A DNA stretch of 44,805 bases from a virus, in IMG/VR virus record IMGVR_UViG_3300044726_000051, positions 1 to 44,805 of that record; one strand, given 5' to 3'. The notes beneath the pieces are model-generated. The model saw only the letters and a list, made by a program, of their open reading frames with translations, made no database searches and was not told the origin of the DNA. Shown here one piece after another: positions 9,513 through 18,312 of the stretch (positions are counted from its first letter, which is position 1; every line of letters starts with the position of its first letter). The translations under genes and the position numbers were made by a program.

Positions 9513-12500
9513 GTGGCCACTACCCTCTGGCTCATAGGGCAAGGCGGTGAACTGTTCCCTGAGCAGGGGGAGCAGGCTACCAACCTGCCCAAGGCTACCA
9601 ACAATGTTGCTTCCGGTAGCAGCGCTGAGGGTCGTCTTAGCCTGTTCCTTAATGGTAGTGCTAACAAAGAAGACAGGTCTGTCGACCTTACAGCCACTAC
9701 CGCGCTACAGTCCACGTTCTTTGGTAGGTTCACTAGTCGGGAACTAGCTGCCCAGACGATCCCCGCTCAGACGTGGACTGCTGCCTTCTTCATGGGGGAG
9801 GAAGCAAGCACCGCTAACCAGTACTTGTGGCCTGTTTTGTACGTCTGGAGGCCGGGGGTAGGTAGGGTTGGGTTCCTCTATGATCCTACGGCAGCAAGCG
9901 GCACGGAGCTTCCCACCACTCCCGCTATTGCGTCAAAGACGTTCTCGGGCACGTCACTTGTCGTACAGACTGGTGACGTTCTTGTTCTTGAGGTATGGTA
10001 CGCTGGCACATCAGGCGGCGCGGCGGGGCAGACTCAGACGTTGCGGGTTACATCTAACCCCGACACTAAGCTCACCTCGCCCTACACCATACAGTTCAAG
10101 CCTAACCCTAAGATAGAGACACTGAAGGAGGACTTTGAGGCACCCCTCGATACCTCTAAGTGGCTGACGGATACGGTAAATGGGTCTGTTGTCTTCTCCG
10201 GGGGTACAGGCAACTTCTCATATACAGCAGCGGTAAACGGCAACCACGCGGGCTTAGAATCCCAAGGTGAGTACGACTTCGCAGGCAGCTCGGCCTTCGT
10301 CAAGATAGCTGATGCCCCATGGTGGGGAGCCGGCAACCCCGCAGGCGGTGAGTTCTCGTTCAGTATTGAATCCGCGAACACCAACCGGATTGACTGGACG
10401 ATCTACTCGACTGGTAACCTCTCGCTCATCAAGTTCACCAATAACACTTGGGGACAGATTGCGGAGATAGAGGCCAACTTCCGCCCGGTCAAAGACAACT
10501 ATGCGTGGCTGCGGTTTCGGGAATCTGGTGGGACGATCTACTTTGAAGCGGCCCCCCTCACTGCTTCTAATCCACCCCTACCGGATGAGTGGGTTGTTAA
10601 ATTCTCGGGGACGGTTGGCTCGCTACCCATAACGCTTGCCTCCGCTAAGGTCACTTTCAGGGTTTGGATAAGCAATGCTACGGCTGGTATCGCTAACCCG
10701 ATGCCGAAGATTGACGCGCTAAACGGTCCCACCACTTCCGGCCCCACTAGCCTAGCTACCCTTACAGTTACCGAGGGGGCCGACACGGTAGCCTCTGATG
10801 TAGCGGTTACCACTCCCCCTCGTACCGCCACTCTTACCGTTACAGAAGCAGCGGATACCATATCTGGCGCAGCTAAGGTCGCCACTACCGCTAACCTCAC
10901 TCGCACCGAGTCGGCGGACACAATAGCTAGTATAGCCAAGGGCGGGTCCGAGGCTGCGGTTATTGTCGCTGAGGCCCCGGACACGATTGCGGCTACCGCT
11001 AGTGTGATCCCCTTCCCCCTGATTGAGACCTTCACGGAGAACTTTGAGGCCCCGCTAGACACTGCTAAGTGGAACCCAGTTACGGTCAACGGAACGATTG
11101 ACTTCGTGGGCGGGGTTGGGGTCCAAACCCTGACCTCGGCGGCGGTAGCCAACCAAGCGTCACTAATCTCAAAAGGATTCTACACCTTTCTCGGTAGCTC
11201 GCTGTTCTACAAGTTCGTCCAACCAATACGTACAGCAGGTAATGTCGTAGGGCTTGAGAATGGCTTCGGTGTTAGGACCCCCGACAACGGCCGCACTATC
11301 CAGTGGTGGTTAGAGGCTGACGGTGTCCTGAAGGCGGTAAAGCAGGACCAGTTCGTACAGACGGTGTTCGCTATAGTAGAGCCCAACTACTACGCGAATC
11401 CCCTCCCCTACACCTGGCTGCGTATCCGGGAGTCGGCTGGGACGGTTTACTTTGACTCGGCCCCGGATACCGCCTCCAACCCACCCATAGAGGCTGACTG
11501 GGTCAACAGGGCTTCCGCCGCCACCGCCACCATAAACGGGCCGTGGACGCAAGCTCAGGTCAACTCCTACATATACATGCAGGGGGCGGCGGCGGGGGTC
11601 CCGACCCAGCCGCTGAAGATCGACGGCATTAACACCGCCGCTAATGCCGCCGTTACTAGCCTAGGCAATCTGGCCGTCCAGGAGGCTGCGGACGCTATCT
11701 CGTCCACCGTTACGGTAGAGGCCCTGGCTACGTCTACGGCTGACCTGTCCGTCACGGAGGCCCCGGACACGGTAGCCTCTACCGTCACCGTAGCGGCGAT
11801 CCCACCGGCTACGGCTAACCTGACTCTGACGGAGGCCCCCAACACTATCTCGGCCACGGCGGGGTCCGTCGCAGGGGCGACCTTCACCAGGTCTGAGGCC
11901 CCTGATACGATTGTAGCCACGGCCTCGTCGGGGATAACGGCTAACCTGACCCGAACGGAGGCCCCAGACGCTATCTCGGCCACGGCCTCGTCCCCGTCCA
12001 CGGCTAACCTGGGAGTAGCAGAGGCCCCGAATACCCTCGCTGCGTCCGTATCGTCGCCCGCTACGGGGGCCCTCACAAGCACTGAAGCCCCAGATACCAT
12101 ATCGGCTACGGCCCTGGTACTCCCCTTCCCGGTTATCAACGCTAGCCTGACGGTACAGGAGGCCCCTGATCAGGTAGCCTCGGCGGCGGGGTCACCGGCT
12201 GCGATCGCGGACTTCTTCAGGACAGAGGCCCCCGATACTATAGTTGCGTCGGCCACCGCTACTATTGGGGCGACCCTTACCCGGACAGAAGCTCCCGATG
12301 GGCTGGCGGCCTCGGCGGCGGGGATCGCGGGGGCTACCCTAGCGCGAACCGAAGCAGCGGATTCTCTAGCCTCTTCCGCAACGGTCCCGGCGACCGGGAA
12401 CTTGAGCAAACAGGAGCTAGACGACAGCCTCTCATCTATAGTTAAGGTGGCGGGGCTAGCTAACCTATCTATACAAGAGGCGGGGGATACCCTAGCTAGC

Positions 12501-12683
12501 ACCGCCTCTGTACTTGAGGGGTCTACCGGGGGCCTAACGGTCACGGAAGCCCCCGACACCCTAGCCGCTACGGGGACGGTGGCGGACCCTATCTCGTTCG
12601 CCAACCTGTCGGTGACGGAGGCCCCCGATACCTCCTTCATGTATACGGTCCACGCTAAGAAACGGGCGATTCTCATCACATAG
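9513..12683 (+). CDS. Giant tail-appendage protein with duplicated domains and TEAPDT repeats, 1056 aa
   Basis: Translation probably starts at GTG, because the overlapping ATG two bases earlier is in another frame. After an N-terminal domain of about 200 residues come two similar blocks, residues about 201-403 and 504-709. Each opens with (KED/TEN)FEAPLDT.KW and runs as a beta sandwich of the concanavalin/LamG type. Each block is followed by short repeats with core (L/N)xxTEAPDTI(A/S): about four after the first and about fifteen after the second. The repeats likely form a rigid stalk and the duplicated domains glycan-binding heads. It closes the late operon just before a terminator. No enzyme motif is seen. 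Confidence 0.8.
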   Translation: MATTLWLIGQGGELFPEQGEQATNLPKATNNVASGSSAEGRLSLFLNGSANKEDRSVDLTATTALQSTFFGRFTSRELAAQTIPAQTWTAAFFMGEEASTANQYLWPVLYVWRPGVGRVGFLYDPTAASGTELPTTPAIASKTFSGTSLVVQTGDVLVLEVWYAGTSGGAAGQTQTLRVTSNPDTKLTSPYTIQFKPNPKIETLKEDFEAPLDTSKWLTDTVNGSVVFSGGTGNFSYTAAVNGNHAGLESQGEYDFAGSSAFVKIADAPWWGAGNPAGGEFSFSIESANTNRIDWTIYSTGNLSLIKFTNNTWGQIAEIEANFRPVKDNYAWLRFRESGGTIYFEAAPLTASNPPLPDEWVVKFSGTVGSLPITLASAKVTFRVWISNATAGIANPMPKIDALNGPTTSGPTSLATLTVTEGADTVASDVAVTTPPRTATLTVTEAADTISGAAKVATTANLTRTESADTIASIAKGGSEAAVIVAEAPDTIAATASVIPFPLIETFTENFEAPLDTAKWNPVTVNGTIDFVGGVGVQTLTSAAVANQASLISKGFYTFLGSSLFYKFVQPIRTAGNVVGLENGFGVRTPDNGRTIQWWLEADGVLKAVKQDQFVQTVFAIVEPNYYANPLPYTWLRIRESAGTVYFDSAPDTASNPPIEADWVNRASAATATINGPWTQAQVNSYIYMQGAAAGVPTQPLKIDGINTAANAAVTSLGNLAVQEAADAISSTVTVEALATSTADLSVTEAPDTVASTVTVAAIPPATANLTLTEAPNTISATAGSVAGATFTRSEAPDTIVATASSGITANLTRTEAPDAISATASSPSTANLGVAEAPNTLAASVSSPATGALTSTEAPDTISATALVLPFPVINASLTVQEAPDQVASAAGSPAAIADFFRTEAPDTIVASATATIGATLTRTEAPDGLAASAAGIAGATLARTEAADSLASSATVPATGNLSKQELDDSLSSIVKVAGLANLSIQEAGDTLASTASVLEGSTGGLTVTEAPDTLAATGTVADPISFANLSVTEAPDTSFMYTVHAKKRAILIT

Positions 12684-12685
12684 AA

Positions 12686-12709
12686 AAGGCCCCTTGCGGG
12701 GCCTTGTTT
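12686..12709. terminator. Bidirectional terminator between convergent operons
   Basis: An eight-base stem (AAGGCCCC / GGGGCCTT) with a TTGC loop is followed by GTTTA. It sits three bases after the stop of the giant tail gene and between it and the convergent - strand operon, with A-rich bases on the other side serving the opposite direction. Confidence 0.85.
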
Positions 12710-12751: not shown

Positions 12752-13069
12752 TTAGCATCCTTTCTTGGGGTGGTGATACTTCGGCTTCGGCTTGTGCTTC
12801 GGCTTCAGGGGGATCGGCTTCGGATGCGACTGGGGCATCATGATAGGCGACTGGTGTACCACCGCCGGGGCCGTCACTGGAGCCGAGTAGGCTACAGGGG
12901 GCGGAGGCGCTGGTTTAACCCAGGCTTGAAGCTCGGGTTGGCACTTGGAGAAGGACCCGGAGGACTTGTGACCCCCGTTCCACGAGTAGCAGGTAGGCTC
13001 ATCCGTGAAGCCCCCGGCGTTGGCGCCGAAGGCTACCAGGAGGCCCCCAAGGAGGGCCAGGTGTTTCAT
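12752..13069 (-). CDS. Secreted Pro/Lys/His-rich protein, 105 aa
   Basis: I start at the ATG overlapping the stop of the Acb2-like gene (ATGA), because it gives a clean signal peptide, MKHLALLGGLLVAFGANAGG. The mature part has a small cysteine pair (TCYSWNGGHKS..SKCQPE) and then a long Pro-rich basic tail of PKP/KHKPK type ending KKGC. Such tails can cross the periplasm or bind the wall. Upstream in-frame codons are inside the preceding gene and rejected. It is part of a tightly coupled operon of exported proteins and the sponge. Its role is unknown; an envelope or lysis-related part is possible. Confidence 0.75.
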   Translation of the reverse strand: MKHLALLGGLLVAFGANAGGFTDEPTCYSWNGGHKSSGSFSKCQPELQAWVKPAPPPPVAYSAPVTAPAVVHQSPIMMPQSHPKPIPLKPKHKPKPKYHHPKKGC

Positions 13070-13296
13070 TTGTGATCCCATGTTACGGCCTTGACTGCCC
13101 ACATCTGAGCGGTCTGAGCCTCGGTGATTGCGATCGAGAGCATGCGGGTTTCGTCCGAGCCTTGCGCCTTGCTACGGATGTCGTTCAGGAGGTCGATGAT
13201 GTCCGCGAACTTCCCCTTGATCGCATCGACCTGGGAGTTGTTGCTGGGGTTGAAGGACACCCCTGCGGCCTTCTGGCCGAAGGTCAGGCCGCTCAC
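13066..13296 (-). CDS. acb2: Acb2/Tad1-type hairpin protein, predicted anti-CBASS sponge
   Basis: The 76-residue protein has the pattern of the Acb2/Tad1 hairpin family. It begins TFGQKAAGVSFNPSNN, then QVDAIKGKFADIIDLLNDI, then an ETRMLSIAITEAQTAQMW helix and a VKAVTW end. Known members assemble as oligomers that sequester cyclic di- and trinucleotides made by CBASS enzymes and so block abortive defence. The FNPS entry, the ID..ND helix and the SIAIT..QTAQM helix are what I rely on. Translation starts at GTG overlapping the upstream TGA, and its TGA overlaps the next ATG. Ligand specificity cannot be read by eye. Confidence 0.78.
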   Translation of the reverse strand: MSGLTFGQKAAGVSFNPSNNSQVDAIKGKFADIIDLLNDIRSKAQGSDETRMLSIAITEAQTAQMWAVKAVTWDHK

Positions 13297-13946
13297 TTGG
13301 GAGCCTTCACATGTTCCCCGATGATCGCGGAGTTCATGGCGCCGAGGCCACGGACAGCGTCCATCATCAGGAGCATCAGTTCACCCTTCTCCTGGGGATA
13401 GGCGTTGCCGTCGAGCGATTGCATCGCCATGCCGATCACGCGGACGTTCTCGCGGACTACGCAGGAGGGTTCGACCTTGGCCCCATTAAGACCCAGTCCC
13501 CAGCCAGGACCAGCGAGTCCCAGTCCACCCGACGCGCCGGTACAGGGGCCGGAGGCGGGTCCAGACATCGCGATGCCCGGGACGTTCTTGAGCGTCTGGG
13601 TTCCGCTGTAGTGAACGTTGGTGTTGTTGGTCGAGGTCCCCGACTGGATGTTCTCGATCTTCCCGTTGTAGGTAGACGTAGAGTTGGCATTGACCGTCTG
13701 CGACGTGGGGCCCGATTGGTCGATAACCACCACGTTGCCGAGGGCCCCCGACTGGGTAGAAGCGGTGGCCCCCGACTGAGAGCCGGATTGGGACTGAGCC
13801 GTGGCGTCGTTCGTGTTCCCCACGGCGACGGCCCCGGCCCCCGAGTTGCTCGTGGAGCCCGACTGGCTCCCCGACTGAGAAGTAGATTCCTGCGCCTGGG
13901 CGCTGAACGCGGCCATCAGGGCTAGGACGATGAGAGTGTGTTTCAT
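13293..13946 (-). CDS. Secreted Ser/Gly/Gln-rich protein, 217 aa
   Basis: A classical signal peptide (MKHTLIVLALMAAFSAQAQ) is followed by about 95 residues of Ser, Gly, Gln, Thr and Asn with repeated SQSGSQSG. A Gly/Pro linker with two cysteines follows, and then a helical C-terminus (VIGMAMQSLDGNAYPQEKGE). GAGGAA lies close to the ATG. Export and low complexity suggest a protein acting in the periplasm or outside the cell. It heads the operon that includes the Acb2-like gene. I do not recognise a family for it. Composition differs from replication proteins and resembles the neighbouring 126-residue secreted protein. Confidence 0.75.
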   Translation of the reverse strand: MKHTLIVLALMAAFSAQAQESTSQSGSQSGSTSNSGAGAVAVGNTNDATAQSQSGSQSGATASTQSGALGNVVVIDQSGPTSQTVNANSTSTYNGKIENIQSGTSTNNTNVHYSGTQTLKNVPGIAMSGPASGPCTGASGGLGLAGPGWGLGLNGAKVEPSCVVRENVRVIGMAMQSLDGNAYPQEKGELMLLMMDAVRGLGAMNSAIIGEHVKAPK

Positions 13947-14023: not shown

Positions 14024-14404
14024 TTAGGGGTTGATGAAGACGAAGCCCTTCAGGAGGCCGAAGCTGCCCGAAGCGGTGGAGGTCGAGCCGGCCACCGAGG
14101 AGCCGCTTTGCTGAGCGAAGCCCAGGGAACCACCGGTTTGGGTGGCGCCGGCAGCGTCTTGGTGCTCGCTGACGGTCGTGCCGCCGGTGGAGTTGACCGA
14201 GGTCAGGTTGCCCGAAATGCCGGTGGAGGCAGCGGTTTGGGTGCCGCCGGAAACGCCGAACAGGGCCGAGCTTTGTTGACCACCAGCGGCTGCGCTACCG
14301 CCCGTTGCGCTCGTACCGGTGGCGCCGGCAACGCCAGCTCCGATGTCCAGAGCGAAGGCGGAAGTGGCGGCCAGCAGGGCCAGGGCGATGAGTGACTTCT
14401 TCAT
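14024..14404 (-). CDS. Secreted Gly/Ser/Thr-rich protein, 126 aa
   Basis: I take the ATG at the signal peptide MKKSLIALALLAATSAFA, which has AGAGGAA upstream. The longer in-frame ORF would put an extension before a perfect signal sequence. The mature part is nearly all small residues (GVAGATGTSATGGSAAAGGQ) with repeated TGG/TQTGG motifs and ends in a hydrophobic GLLKGFVFINP. Codon choice is unlike most neighbours: it favours CTG and GCC over the CTA/GCT-rich style, as the major capsid gene also does, which suggests high expression. Its function is unknown; it may coat the cell surface or virion. Confidence 0.78.
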   Translation of the reverse strand: MKKSLIALALLAATSAFALDIGAGVAGATGTSATGGSAAAGGQQSSALFGVSGGTQTAASTGISGNLTSVNSTGGTTVSEHQDAAGATQTGGSLGFAQQSGSSVAGSTSTASGSFGLLKGFVFINP

Positions 14405-14724: not shown

Positions 14725-15015
14725 CTATTTTTGGTTAGTGTAGCCGGGGCCGGGTTCAGTTCCGTTGTCGTCCAGTTTGGATAGGACGCGGTTGATCCGG
14801 TCGTGCTGATCCTGACGCAGGTTCTCCGTAGCGAGCCACATACAGGTGTAGTCGAGTACCTTGATTAGGTCCTCCACGAGTTGGCCCTTATGCGGGGCCC
14901 GCTCGGCATACTTCGTGATATTGCCTTGGTACCAGTTGAGGTTCAAGCGGATCGCCCGCTCGTGATGCTGCTCCCCGGGAACAGTCTTGTAGTGCGCACC
15001 TTGTTCTTCAGCCAC
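14725..15015 (-). CDS. DUF3310-like protein, 96 aa
   Basis: I start at GTG overlapping the upstream stop, with AAGGAA in front. The sequence GAHYKTVPGEQHHERAIR, then WYQGNITKYAERAPHKG and EDLIKVLDYTCMWLA, follows the pattern of DUF3310 phage proteins (HYK...; GN.IKY..R...K; EDL.K...Y). The family's biochemical role is unsettled; members recur beside phage nucleotide-metabolism genes, as here beside an HD nucleotidase and a ThyA homologue. The C-terminal 20 residues are polar and end YTNQK. Confidence 0.7.
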   Translation of the reverse strand: MAEEQGAHYKTVPGEQHHERAIRLNLNWYQGNITKYAERAPHKGQLVEDLIKVLDYTCMWLATENLRQDQHDRINRVLSKLDDNGTEPGPGYTNQK

Positions 15016-15481
15016 GGTATTCCTTAAACAGTTTATCGGCCTCTTTGGTCGGGGGCCCCATCGCAACCAGGGCCTCCCTAGCGGTTTCGACCACGTACCG
15101 CATCAGATTGTTCCCCATATCGACTTCTCTCATCGAGTACAGGTAACACTCGAACATATCCGCCCAGGCCAGACACTTCAACTCGATAGGCGTCAGGCTT
15201 AGGGGGGTCCCATTGATCATAGCAAACTCCCGCTCGGCCTCTAGCGTGGTTTGCTTTAGCTTGGGATACTTCTTCTTGCCGGTATAGGGGATGTCCCCCG
15301 TTATCGACTCGGCCAGGTCGTGAGTCAGCGCGGCCTCGACCAGGTGGAGGTTCCCCGGCATGATCTCGCGGATGATTAGGGCTACCCCCCACGAGTGGGC
15401 GGCTAGGTCCTGATCCTTGAGTAGGTTCTGCGTATGGTACCGTCGCACGGCCCCCGCGTTGTATAGCGTTTTGAAGTTCAT
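15008..15481 (-). CDS. HD-domain 5'-deoxynucleotidase, YfbR-like
   Basis: The metal-binding HD signature is complete: R13-R14/H16 near the N-terminus, H29, H54-D55 (LTHDLAE), E58, D63 (TGDIP) and D108 (WADMFE). This matches the YfbR-type dNMP 5'-nucleotidases. The 157-residue length fits a single-domain enzyme. It would hydrolyse deoxynucleoside monophosphates. Next to a dUMP hydroxymethylase candidate it could remove dTMP so that the modified nucleotide enters DNA. A -10 TATACT ends eight bases before the ATG and no ribosome site is seen, so the transcript may be leaderless. Confidence 0.85.
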   Translation of the reverse strand: MNFKTLYNAGAVRRYHTQNLLKDQDLAAHSWGVALIIREIMPGNLHLVEAALTHDLAESITGDIPYTGKKKYPKLKQTTLEAEREFAMINGTPLSLTPIELKCLAWADMFECYLYSMREVDMGNNLMRYVVETAREALVAMGPPTKEADKLFKEYRG

Positions 15482-15613: not shown

Positions 15614-16585
15614 CTAGACCTTTGCCCTGCGCTCTAACCACTCCTTGCAAGCAAGGCGCCAATCGGTGGCGAGGCAGTCTTGTACGTACTGGAGGGCCCA
15701 CATAGAGTCCCCGCTCTTGTGAGCGTCCCAGGCCTTACGGAGGGGCATTACCACCCCGGCGAAGTAGGCAGTTCGTACATCGTAGGATTGGTCGGTGAAG
15801 TACCGGCAATCAGCATCGAAGTTGTGACGATCGTCTGGGTTCTCGAACAAGGCCACCGGGAGGACCCGGCGTTGAGAGTAGGGCTCGGTGTCCCGGTCGG
15901 AGATCACCCCCAGGTCGAATAGGGGCCAATGCTTCTCGTACACGTGGAGATTGTTAGTGAACTGGTAGTAGGTCCCCTGTAGGTATCCCGCCGCCCGAGC
16001 GATGTACTCGTGGAGGAAGGACATATGGACGGCGTTCGCCCCGCAGGCCCCCCACACCAGGTCGTTGCTTCGGTTACACACCGTCATATTGAGGAATGGA
16101 GCATTGATGTCGAAGTAGATGTGGGTATTACAAGGGAGGTCCTTGCCGGCCCGATCCAGGTCGCTGTGGGGGTCCCACATACCGATAACCGCACGGCGCG
16201 TATCCGGGTCCCGCCTGAGCATGGAGATAACCTGCTCGATCTGATCGACCCCGAAGTGGAGCCTCCACCGGTGGCCGTAGGCCCCGTGAAGGGTCACGCC
16301 GTCGTCGCTGTACTCCCGTATCTGCTTGGCGTACCGGGCCGGCAGGGCGACCTCGTTGCTCCCCGATAGCATCCAGATCGACTCGAACAGGTGGAAGAAC
16401 GGGTTGGCGTCCCTCGTCTCATCGAACAGGACCCGCTCGGCGGGGTTGGAGTACTCCAATATGGCGGGGAAAGGGAGCGCCATGACCCTCCCGTTCCTGG
16501 AGGGACCCTCGGCCCCCTCCATTTGTACTCGCCACATCGCCTCGGGGAACATCTGGTTGACGTTCCTTGCCTGAATATGCATCAT
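15614..16585 (-). CDS. Thymidylate-synthase homologue, probable dUMP hydroxymethylase
   Basis: Start is the first of two ATGs overlapping the upstream TGA, with AAGGAA in front. The ThyA core is complete: RRAVI (130-134) for phosphate, catalytic Cys152 in DLPCNTHIYF, NRSNDLVWG (171-179) and LHVY (213-216). Asn184 aligns with the thymidylate-synthase Asn that selects uracil, whereas dCMP hydroxymethylases have Asp there. It could be a plain thymidylate synthase, but WGACGANAV and the hypermodification genes beside it favour making 5-hydroxymethyl-dUMP from dUMP and methylene-tetrahydrofolate. This is the entry step of the proposed pathway. Confidence 0.83.
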   Translation of the reverse strand: MMHIQARNVNQMFPEAMWRVQMEGAEGPSRNGRVMALPFPAILEYSNPAERVLFDETRDANPFFHLFESIWMLSGSNEVALPARYAKQIREYSDDGVTLHGAYGHRWRLHFGVDQIEQVISMLRRDPDTRRAVIGMWDPHSDLDRAGKDLPCNTHIYFDINAPFLNMTVCNRSNDLVWGACGANAVHMSFLHEYIARAAGYLQGTYYQFTNNLHVYEKHWPLFDLGVISDRDTEPYSQRRVLPVALFENPDDRHNFDADCRYFTDQSYDVRTAYFAGVVMPLRKAWDAHKSGDSMWALQYVQDCLATDWRLACKEWLERRAKV

Positions 16586-17412
16586 GATGGTTCCTTGTAT
16601 TGGGCTTTCGCCCTGCCTTTGTAATACTTGATCCGAACATACTTGCTGAACTCGCACAGACAGTTCTGAGTGTCGTGGGCGGTCAGGTCGTACCCGGTGT
16701 TATGACTGATCAATACCCTTATTTCGTTGACCTCCTTAGAGAATTGAGTAGCGTTAATGGATTGGCCCGGAGGTCTACCGTGGAGGTAGTTCAGCCCCCG
16801 GCTAGAGCCGGGCCCCGGTGAGCAGAAGGTCCACCAGTCGTCGGCGTATTCAAGCAGAGGGGTGTACTTGAGGTCGGCTATGACCTGGGCGGCTAGGAAG
16901 CTCCCCAGGCCCCGGGAGCACTGGATGATCCGGCAGGCGTCCTCTAGCTTCATGCTCTTTCGGATCGTCCTACAGTGGTGGAAGGCGTCGTCAAGGACCC
17001 GGGCGATGATCTCCTGCTTGGTCTCCCCGCCCTTGGAGAACCCCCCGGTGACCATATAGGCCCCGGTCCATATCTTGAACCCGTTCTCCGACAAGGCGTC
17101 CATCTGTTGAACGAACCTGTCGTGGGACCAGACCTCGGGGAAGCCCAGGGACCCCAGGGTAAGGGGCCAATTGACGGTACGGGCGACACACATAGAGAAG
17201 GCCAGGTTCTCGTGGTGTCGGTAGGGGTCCCGCCAATTGTCCTTGATCCACCGAGTGACCTTGTCGTCCTCCCGGCGGATGTTACAGAAGCGGGTCGTTC
17301 GGATTATCTGGTCCGTAGTCCACGGCGGGGGTCGGCGTTCCTCCTCCCGCTTAATCCGCACGCTTTCCCGCTCCCGTATCCAGTGATACAGGTCGGCTTC
17401 GTGGGGAGTCAT
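16582..17412 (-). CDS. aGPT-pyrophosphorylase-like thymine hypermodification protein, 276 aa
   Basis: The protein matches my recollection of the alpha-glutamyl/putrescinyl thymine pyrophosphorylase family. It has an N-terminal WIRERESVRIKREE helix, RTTRFCNIRREDDKVTRWI, a middle NLAFSMCVARTVNWPLTLG, GAYMVTGGFSKGGETK, then CSRGLGSFLAAQVIADLKY and CSPGPGSSRGLNYLHG. In characterised phages such helical proteins act on pyrophosphorylated 5-hydroxymethyl-dU in DNA, replacing pyrophosphate by an amine or amino acid. I start at MTPHEADLYHW with AAGGAC upstream; the ATG overlaps the stop of a small membrane peptide. Three nearby genes fit the same pathway. The acceptor amine is unknown. Confidence 0.75.
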   Translation of the reverse strand: MTPHEADLYHWIRERESVRIKREEERRPPPWTTDQIIRTTRFCNIRREDDKVTRWIKDNWRDPYRHHENLAFSMCVARTVNWPLTLGSLGFPEVWSHDRFVQQMDALSENGFKIWTGAYMVTGGFSKGGETKQEIIARVLDDAFHHCRTIRKSMKLEDACRIIQCSRGLGSFLAAQVIADLKYTPLLEYADDWWTFCSPGPGSSRGLNYLHGRPPGQSINATQFSKEVNEIRVLISHNTGYDLTAHDTQNCLCEFSKYVRIKYYKGRAKAQYKEPS

Positions 17413-17522
17413 TTGAGGTCCTTCTTCATCCCCTTGACGAAGAGCCAAGCCACCGTGACGATAGTGACGCAGGGGATACCCACCACGATGAGGAGGGCGA
17501 CCATCAGTTCATTGTTGCTCAT
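17409..17522 (-). CDS. Small membrane peptide, 37 aa
   Basis: The frame MSNNELMVALLIVVGIPCVT continues IVTVAWLFVKGMKKDLK. It has one hydrophobic helix (about residues 7-28) and a basic end, so an inner-membrane peptide with the C-terminus in the cytoplasm is likely. Both ends are coupled: ATG overlaps the upstream TGA and its TGA overlaps the next ATG. Its place inside the modification operon is unexplained; it may be a holin-like or regulatory microprotein that hitch-hikes on the transcript. Confidence 0.65.
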   Translation of the reverse strand: MSNNELMVALLIVVGIPCVTIVTVAWLFVKGMKKDLK

Positions 17523-17743
17523 AGCTCGTATTCCCATTTGAGGGCGTCCTCAAGAGAGGTCGCGGTTACAATTCCTTCCTTGGGGAAGGGCTTGATCCAG
17601 AAGGTGAGGTTGTTCTTCTTGCGCCAGCCTTTCGACCAGCCAGACTTAACCAACTCCTCTTCCATGATGCGGTCTAGCTCCAGCTGGGCCCCCCGGATAC
17701 GGTTGTACCCTGCCCCGGACATAGGGGTGGAGCCGATAGTCAT
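17519..17743 (-). CDS. Hypothetical protein in modification operon, 74 aa
   Basis: I choose the ATG overlapping the kinase stop (MTIGSTPMSGAGYNRIRG). The longer in-frame form would be embedded in the kinase gene. The protein is soluble with a charged helix (QLELDRIMEEELVKSGWSKG) and a C-terminal beta/helix part (LTFWIKPFPKEGIVTATSLE). The four-base overlaps on both sides imply coupled translation with the kinase. No family is recognised; a small partner of the kinase or transferase is possible. Confidence 0.65.
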   Translation of the reverse strand: MTIGSTPMSGAGYNRIRGAQLELDRIMEEELVKSGWSKGWRKKNNLTFWIKPFPKEGIVTATSLEDALKWEYEL

Positions 17744-18312
17744 CGGGGCTCCAAAAGCTGTAGGAGCTGGGCTAGGGGCAGCTTCTCGTAGTTGAGGATA
17801 GCTACCTTGTGCTCCTTCTCCAGGAGCAGCCTGTCGCGGAGTCGATTGATCGTGGTCCATTTGTTTCTCGTCAGTTGTGGGTTGAACTTGTTCTTGCTCT
17901 CGTTGGTAGCGCGGCGCTCCACTACCCGGTCCAGGCAGACGTTGATCGGGGTATCCAGGAAGGCATAGATGTAGTCGCCCCCGTACTTCTTGGAGTGCTC
18001 CCCCATCGCCCCGTAGTAGGTGCTCTGGAGAAGGCCCTCGTGTACCACGTGGCCCTCCTTGGCGTAGCGGTCAATCATCTCCATGACCTCTTGGGCGGTG
18101 CCGACCGTATCGACACCCCCGCAAGCGTTCTCGTAGCTCCCCAGGAGGAAGACAGGGTTGTCTAGCTCCAGCAGGTCGAGGCGGTAGCCCACGGTCTTGC
18201 GCTTGTTGTTGATCTCGTGTAGAGGATCGATGGTCGCGGCGGCTTCGATCAGGGAGCGGGCAAAGGTGGTTTTACCCGCCCCCGAGCAGCCATGTATCTT
18301 CAAAATGGTCAT
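17740..18312 (-). CDS. P-loop kinase, probable 5-hydroxymethyl-dU DNA kinase
   Basis: A Walker A loop GCSGAGKTT occupies residues 8-16. Further on are YRLDLLELDN, a VVHEGLLQSTYYGAMGEH region resembling an acceptor site, YAFLDTPINVCLDRV and an RR..N basic lid (RRATNESKN). The 190-residue size and layout agree with the small 5-hmdU DNA kinases that phosphorylate hydroxymethyluracil in DNA to prime amine transfer. A nucleoside monophosphate kinase acting on hydroxymethyl-dUMP is the main alternative. Its position directly between a SNF2 helicase and the aGPT-type protein supports the DNA kinase reading. It overlaps the helicase stop by one base. Confidence 0.72.
   Translation of the reverse strand: MTILKIHGCSGAGKTTFARSLIEAAATIDPLHEINNKRKTVGYRLDLLELDNPVFLLGSYENACGGVDTVGTAQEVMEMIDRYAKEGHVVHEGLLQSTYYGAMGEHSKKYGGDYIYAFLDTPINVCLDRVVERRATNESKNKFNPQLTRNKWTTINRLRDRLLLEKEHKVAILNYEKLPLAQLLQLLEPR

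Follow-up and report, generated by a model that had tools for sequence, protein, structure and literature searches.

The window analysed here is a 44,805-nucleotide stretch of viral DNA that spans positions 1 to 44,805 of IMG/VR record IMGVR_UViG_3300044726_000051. On its minus strand, at 13066–13296, lies an open reading frame that starts with GTG at 13296 and encodes a 76-residue protein resembling the Acb2 hairpin proteins (MSGLTFGQKAAGVSFNPSNNSQVDAIKGKFADIIDLLNDIRSKAQGSDETRMLSIAITEAQTAQMWAVKAVTWDHK). The first-pass annotation had placed a gene here with no strand given; the reading frame is real, and the plus strand over 13066–13296 encodes no comparable protein. Both ends of the gene overlap its neighbours by four bases: the GTGA at 13296–13293 joins its start to the stop of the upstream gene, and the ATGA at 13069–13066 joins its TGA to the ATG of the downstream gene. 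From these overlaps we infer translational coupling of the gene to both neighbours. A GAAGG stretch lies 7 nt 5' of the GTG. Comparison with six relatives yields dN/dS values of approximately 0.24–0.45, i.e., the gene is under purifying selection. In the comparison with one related contig (L011), dS is higher for this gene (0.84) than for the upstream gene (0.47), which, as a weak signal from one short gene, hints at allele exchange at this locus.

The setting between genes for Sec-exported proteins, also claimed in the first-pass annotation, is likewise real. Both overlapping neighbours are read from the minus strand and encode proteins with Sec signal peptides (MKHTLIVLALMAAFSAQA and MKHLALLGGLLVAFGANA), which were called by eye and with a simple rule. 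The upstream product (13293–13946, 217 aa) is rich in Ser, Gly, Thr, and Gln; it has no significant family match and none in 50,697 phage records. The downstream product (12752–13069, 105 aa) has a Pro/Lys-rich C terminus, and a weak TonB-like similarity, far below the cut-off, is confined to this part; it too has no match in the 50,697 phage records. Both genes, including that of the 217-residue protein, are kept in related metagenomic contigs and are under purifying selection. A third exported protein of the cassette (14024–14404, minus strand, 126 aa), with a Sec signal peptide (MKKSLIALALLAATSAFA), has no Pfam match. Since the Acb2-like protein carries no signal peptide, it is not read as exported itself.

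The Acb2-like gene, both its neighbours, and the next upstream gene are all read leftward. The Acb2-like gene is close to the end of this operon, beyond which lies a convergent tail-side gene (9513–12683, plus strand). A terminator-like hairpin (12686–12705) is situated between the two; it comes from a consensus scan only, with 5 sites in the whole window vs. 3.2 expected by chance. The arrangement resembles that of acb2 in PaMx33, which closes a leftward operon that faces a structural gene. The tail-gene stretch of the window has only short matches, at 70–73% identity, to Arthrobacter phages.

Further genes of the same leftward operon, all on the minus strand, include a thymidylate-synthase-like gene (15614–16657; phrog_5131, 1.8e-108), a gene for a 5-hmdU DNA kinase helical-domain protein (16582–17448; PF18723, 3.8e-40), and a gene for a 5-hmdU-kinase-like P-loop protein (17740–18312; PF18748, 26.9 bits, slightly below the cut-off). 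Grouped in this way (15614–18312), they look like a thymine hypermodification pathway, and such a modification could shield phage DNA from restriction. Adjoining the thymidylate-synthase-like gene is a gene for an HD-domain protein resembling the 5'-deoxynucleotidase YfbR (15008–15481, minus strand; PF12917, 3e-12; phrog_6047, 2.8e-30).

PF24729 (Acb2_Tad1_hairpin) is the single Pfam family matched by the 76-residue protein (hmmscan; 50.1 bits, E 3.2e-13; curated cut-off of 27 bits), and its best PHROG is phrog_717 (E 2.9e-10), the set of Vs.4 homologues of Jenson et al. (PMC10097602). All 48 of 48 aligned relatives match both profiles, while neither the reversed sequence nor a scrambled control of similar composition matches PF24729. 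Known Acb2 proteins (PaMx33 gp24/PaP2 p26 and T4 Vs.4), which are likewise small and all-helical, share these assignments: T4 Vs.4 and PaMx33 Acb2 match PF24729 and phrog_717 too, the latter with E-values of 2.3e-32 and 9.8e-33, respectively. Membership in the Acb2/Tad1 hairpin family, which the first-pass annotation had proposed from sequence motifs, is thus clearly borne out by profile search. Each of these motifs (FGQKA, FNPS, VDAIK, SIAIT, QTAQMW, and KA.TW) is found in the protein, and they are the segments best conserved across the family, which is large (71 distinct sequences in the alignment; 323 viral loci). PADLOC and NCBIfam gave no match for the protein. Unusually long reading frames in three contigs (L042, L066, and L076) were considered as fusion proteins and rejected, as they look like upstream start-codon extensions, a normal start lying directly ahead of the conserved region.

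Direct sequence search of the PDB gave marginal matches (Vs.4, E 0.46 with phmmer and 0.0093 with a profile; p26, E 0.6), and the homology therefore rests on PF24729, phrog_717, and profile–profile alignment. With hhalign, the new group aligns to the PaMx33-type Acb2 profile at 96% probability (E 4e-9, 49 columns) and weakly to the T4 Vs.4-type group (33.8%, 19 columns); the two known groups align to each other at 97.8%. The good score against one known group and the poor score against the other indicate that homology is well supported and that the branch is separate and divergent. On this sequence evidence, we assign the protein to a distinct, divergent branch of the Acb2/Tad1 hairpin family.

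The AlphaFold2 model built from the 48-sequence alignment (pLDDT 95.5) has a short helix at 5–10 followed by a long antiparallel hairpin of helices 20–41 and 46–71, the initial Met being excluded from the numbering. This is the Acb2 layout as described, i.e., one short and two long helices (PMC10419184). The stretch linking the helices is shorter in the new protein, which totals 76 aa vs. 88–93 in Acb2. Structural comparison does not discriminate for such a short helical hairpin, either with Foldseek or with VIA-align: T4 Vs.4 (7uq2) ranked first among 133 aligned chains with Z 7.5, tied with unrelated bundles (background 7.5), and the solved Acb2 8h2j gave Z 5.8. As a yardstick, the PaP2 Acb2 model scores Z 9.3 against Vs.4, and unrelated bundles reach up to 8.9.

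The same model bears on the suggestion in the first-pass annotation that the host range includes bacteria with Thoeris-like signalling, which is not supported. The Pfam model, by its name, spans the helical hairpin of Tad1 (Thoeris anti-defence 1) too. Tad1, however, has an N-terminal antiparallel beta sheet (PMC12043709), whereas in the 76-residue protein no more than 19 residues precede the hairpin, and the model is all helix, with no strand. Because this beta domain is missing, inhibition of Thoeris is not expected.

Residue equivalences were taken from the joint alignment of the 48 relatives with the known Acb2 groups. In the Vs.4–cGAMP complex, Y8 and F82 stack, contacts are made by Y8, H11, K23, and R79, and the hexamer is formed by L29, A66, A73, and A77 (PMC10097602). 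Several of these positions are kept, as in Acb2. The helix-cap T12 of Vs.4 corresponds to N16. The basic pocket residue K23/K26 of the known Acb2 proteins corresponds to K27 (48/48), and R79/R85 corresponds to K69 (48/48), a conservative change of Arg to Lys. The interface residues A66, A73, and A77 of Vs.4 correspond to A56, A63, and A67, with alanine or a similarly small residue kept at all three.

The lid is different. In the KGY motif, the tyrosine that stacks on cyclic dinucleotides (Y8 in T4, Y11 in PaMx33) is present in 30/30 and 13/13 members of the known groups, whereas the aligned column in the new branch holds Q or E8. Where Acb2 has a KGY..[ST] lid, the new branch has a conserved TFGxKAxGxxFNP segment with a four-residue insertion, which makes the alignment of the lid uncertain. 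F82 of Vs.4 aligns with T72, and the adjoining W73 is almost invariant. With the lid replaced and no stacking tyrosine in the aligned column, the sequence does not reveal the ligand. One possibility, which we hold to be a minority reading though a substantial one, is that this hairpin-fold relative with its remodelled lid sequesters a signal other than cyclic dinucleotides, e.g., cyclic trinucleotides or the cyclic oligoadenylates of type III CRISPR systems. It would account for a lid that has changed to another strongly conserved segment while K27, R51, T58, Q61, Q64, W66, K69, and W73 stayed near-invariant in the branch, and it agrees with the location of the trinucleotide site of Acb2, which is separate from the dinucleotide site (reviewed in PMC12043709). 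However, F6 and F15 are conserved aromatic residues nearby, and either may take over the stacking role of the tyrosine, in which case a modified dinucleotide site may still be there. The proposal that this large, unannotated subfamily, marked by its TFGxKAxGxxFNP lid, takes up a nucleotide signal other than those of the characterised Acb2 proteins is put forward tentatively, as one that we regard as rather unlikely to hold.

Sequestering of a nucleotide signal is also the strategy proposed here in common with the sponges Acb4 and Tad2. In contrast to the hexameric Acb2, both are described as tetramers (PMC11722364; PMC12043709), and Acb4 is without structural homology to Acb2 (PMC11722364; PMC12043709). 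No sequence link of either of them to the 76-residue protein was found.

Relatives are carried by 323 confirmed viral contig loci in IMG/VR and by 159 phage records, with Enterobacter phage EcP1, Pasteurella phage Pmp11, and numerous Flavobacterium phages as examples; among the matches listed, they are annotated as "hypothetical protein". In bacterial genomes, 33 loci were found, ranging from Bacteroidota to Pasteurellaceae and Saccharibacteria. Such an occurrence in diverse phages and bacterial genomes is as expected of a counter-defence gene. CD-NTase (SMODS) matches above the cut-off were present in 3 of 15 genomes with related prophage genes vs. 2 of 14 controls, i.e., no enrichment was seen; the wider suggestion of the first-pass annotation about the host range is not supported either. 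In other phages, small exported cysteine-rich proteins (e.g., MKKAIIGVYLATLATMTWASCTTNTYYING...) are encoded near the Acb2-like genes (L049:5243–5368, L053:4755–4904, L058:2942–3091, and L060:2800–2946).

Outside the lineage of the window, the Acb2-like gene is flanked for the most part by genes for DNA metabolism, terminase, or lysis, or by genes of unknown function. This gene context, found in many phages, and a conservation that is strong for an arms-race gene would suit a hairpin protein of Acb2 ancestry that has lost nucleotide binding and adopted another role, e.g., as a DNA-metabolism or assembly factor. Such a loss seems improbable to us, as several conserved positions correspond to residues that contact the ligand or form the interface in Acb2, and known acb2 genes are also found among DNA-metabolism, terminase, and lysis-type neighbours.

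The arrangement in which the Acb2-like gene is enclosed by two exported-protein genes, with ends overlapping or nearly touching, occurs in nine contigs that are close relatives (L007–L013, L017, and L021). None of the other family members checked has both neighbours exported, as judged by the rule-based check of signal peptides. Being present in the nine related contigs and not seen elsewhere, the arrangement is a lineage trait. Its retention in all nine might be taken to mean that sponge and exported proteins function as a unit, with the latter shielding the envelope against CBASS effectors that target membranes; with all nine contigs belonging to one phage group and no such pair of neighbours in any other member checked, we consider this very unlikely. 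The placement of the sponge gene is best read as co-expression in the cassette of one phage lineage.

The reading that we prefer, and consider likely, is that the protein is a cytoplasmic Acb2-like sponge, likely a hexamer, that binds cyclic oligonucleotides and keeps CBASS-type effectors inactive. The phage would make it in the host cytoplasm from the leftward operon, and the helical-hairpin protein would assemble into a hexamer, like Acb2. The hexamer would then bind the cyclic oligonucleotide alarm signals produced by an immune nucleotidyltransferase of the host, and these would be withheld from their effectors, so that CBASS-type effectors stay inactive during infection. The homology, the predicted fold, and the conservation of several basic pocket and interface positions were observed here, while hexamer formation, ligand binding, and the anti-CBASS effect are what we infer; that the sponge acts against CBASS is probable.

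The new element is a widespread, uncharacterised branch of a known family of sponges that has an altered lid, and this branch shows which positions stay fixed while the ligand lid changes. If its members do sequester another signal, a widespread phage group would carry a sponge whose specificity is new. The branch would also add to the phages that probably escape CBASS or else set off the sponge-sensing Panoptes (PMC12657218).
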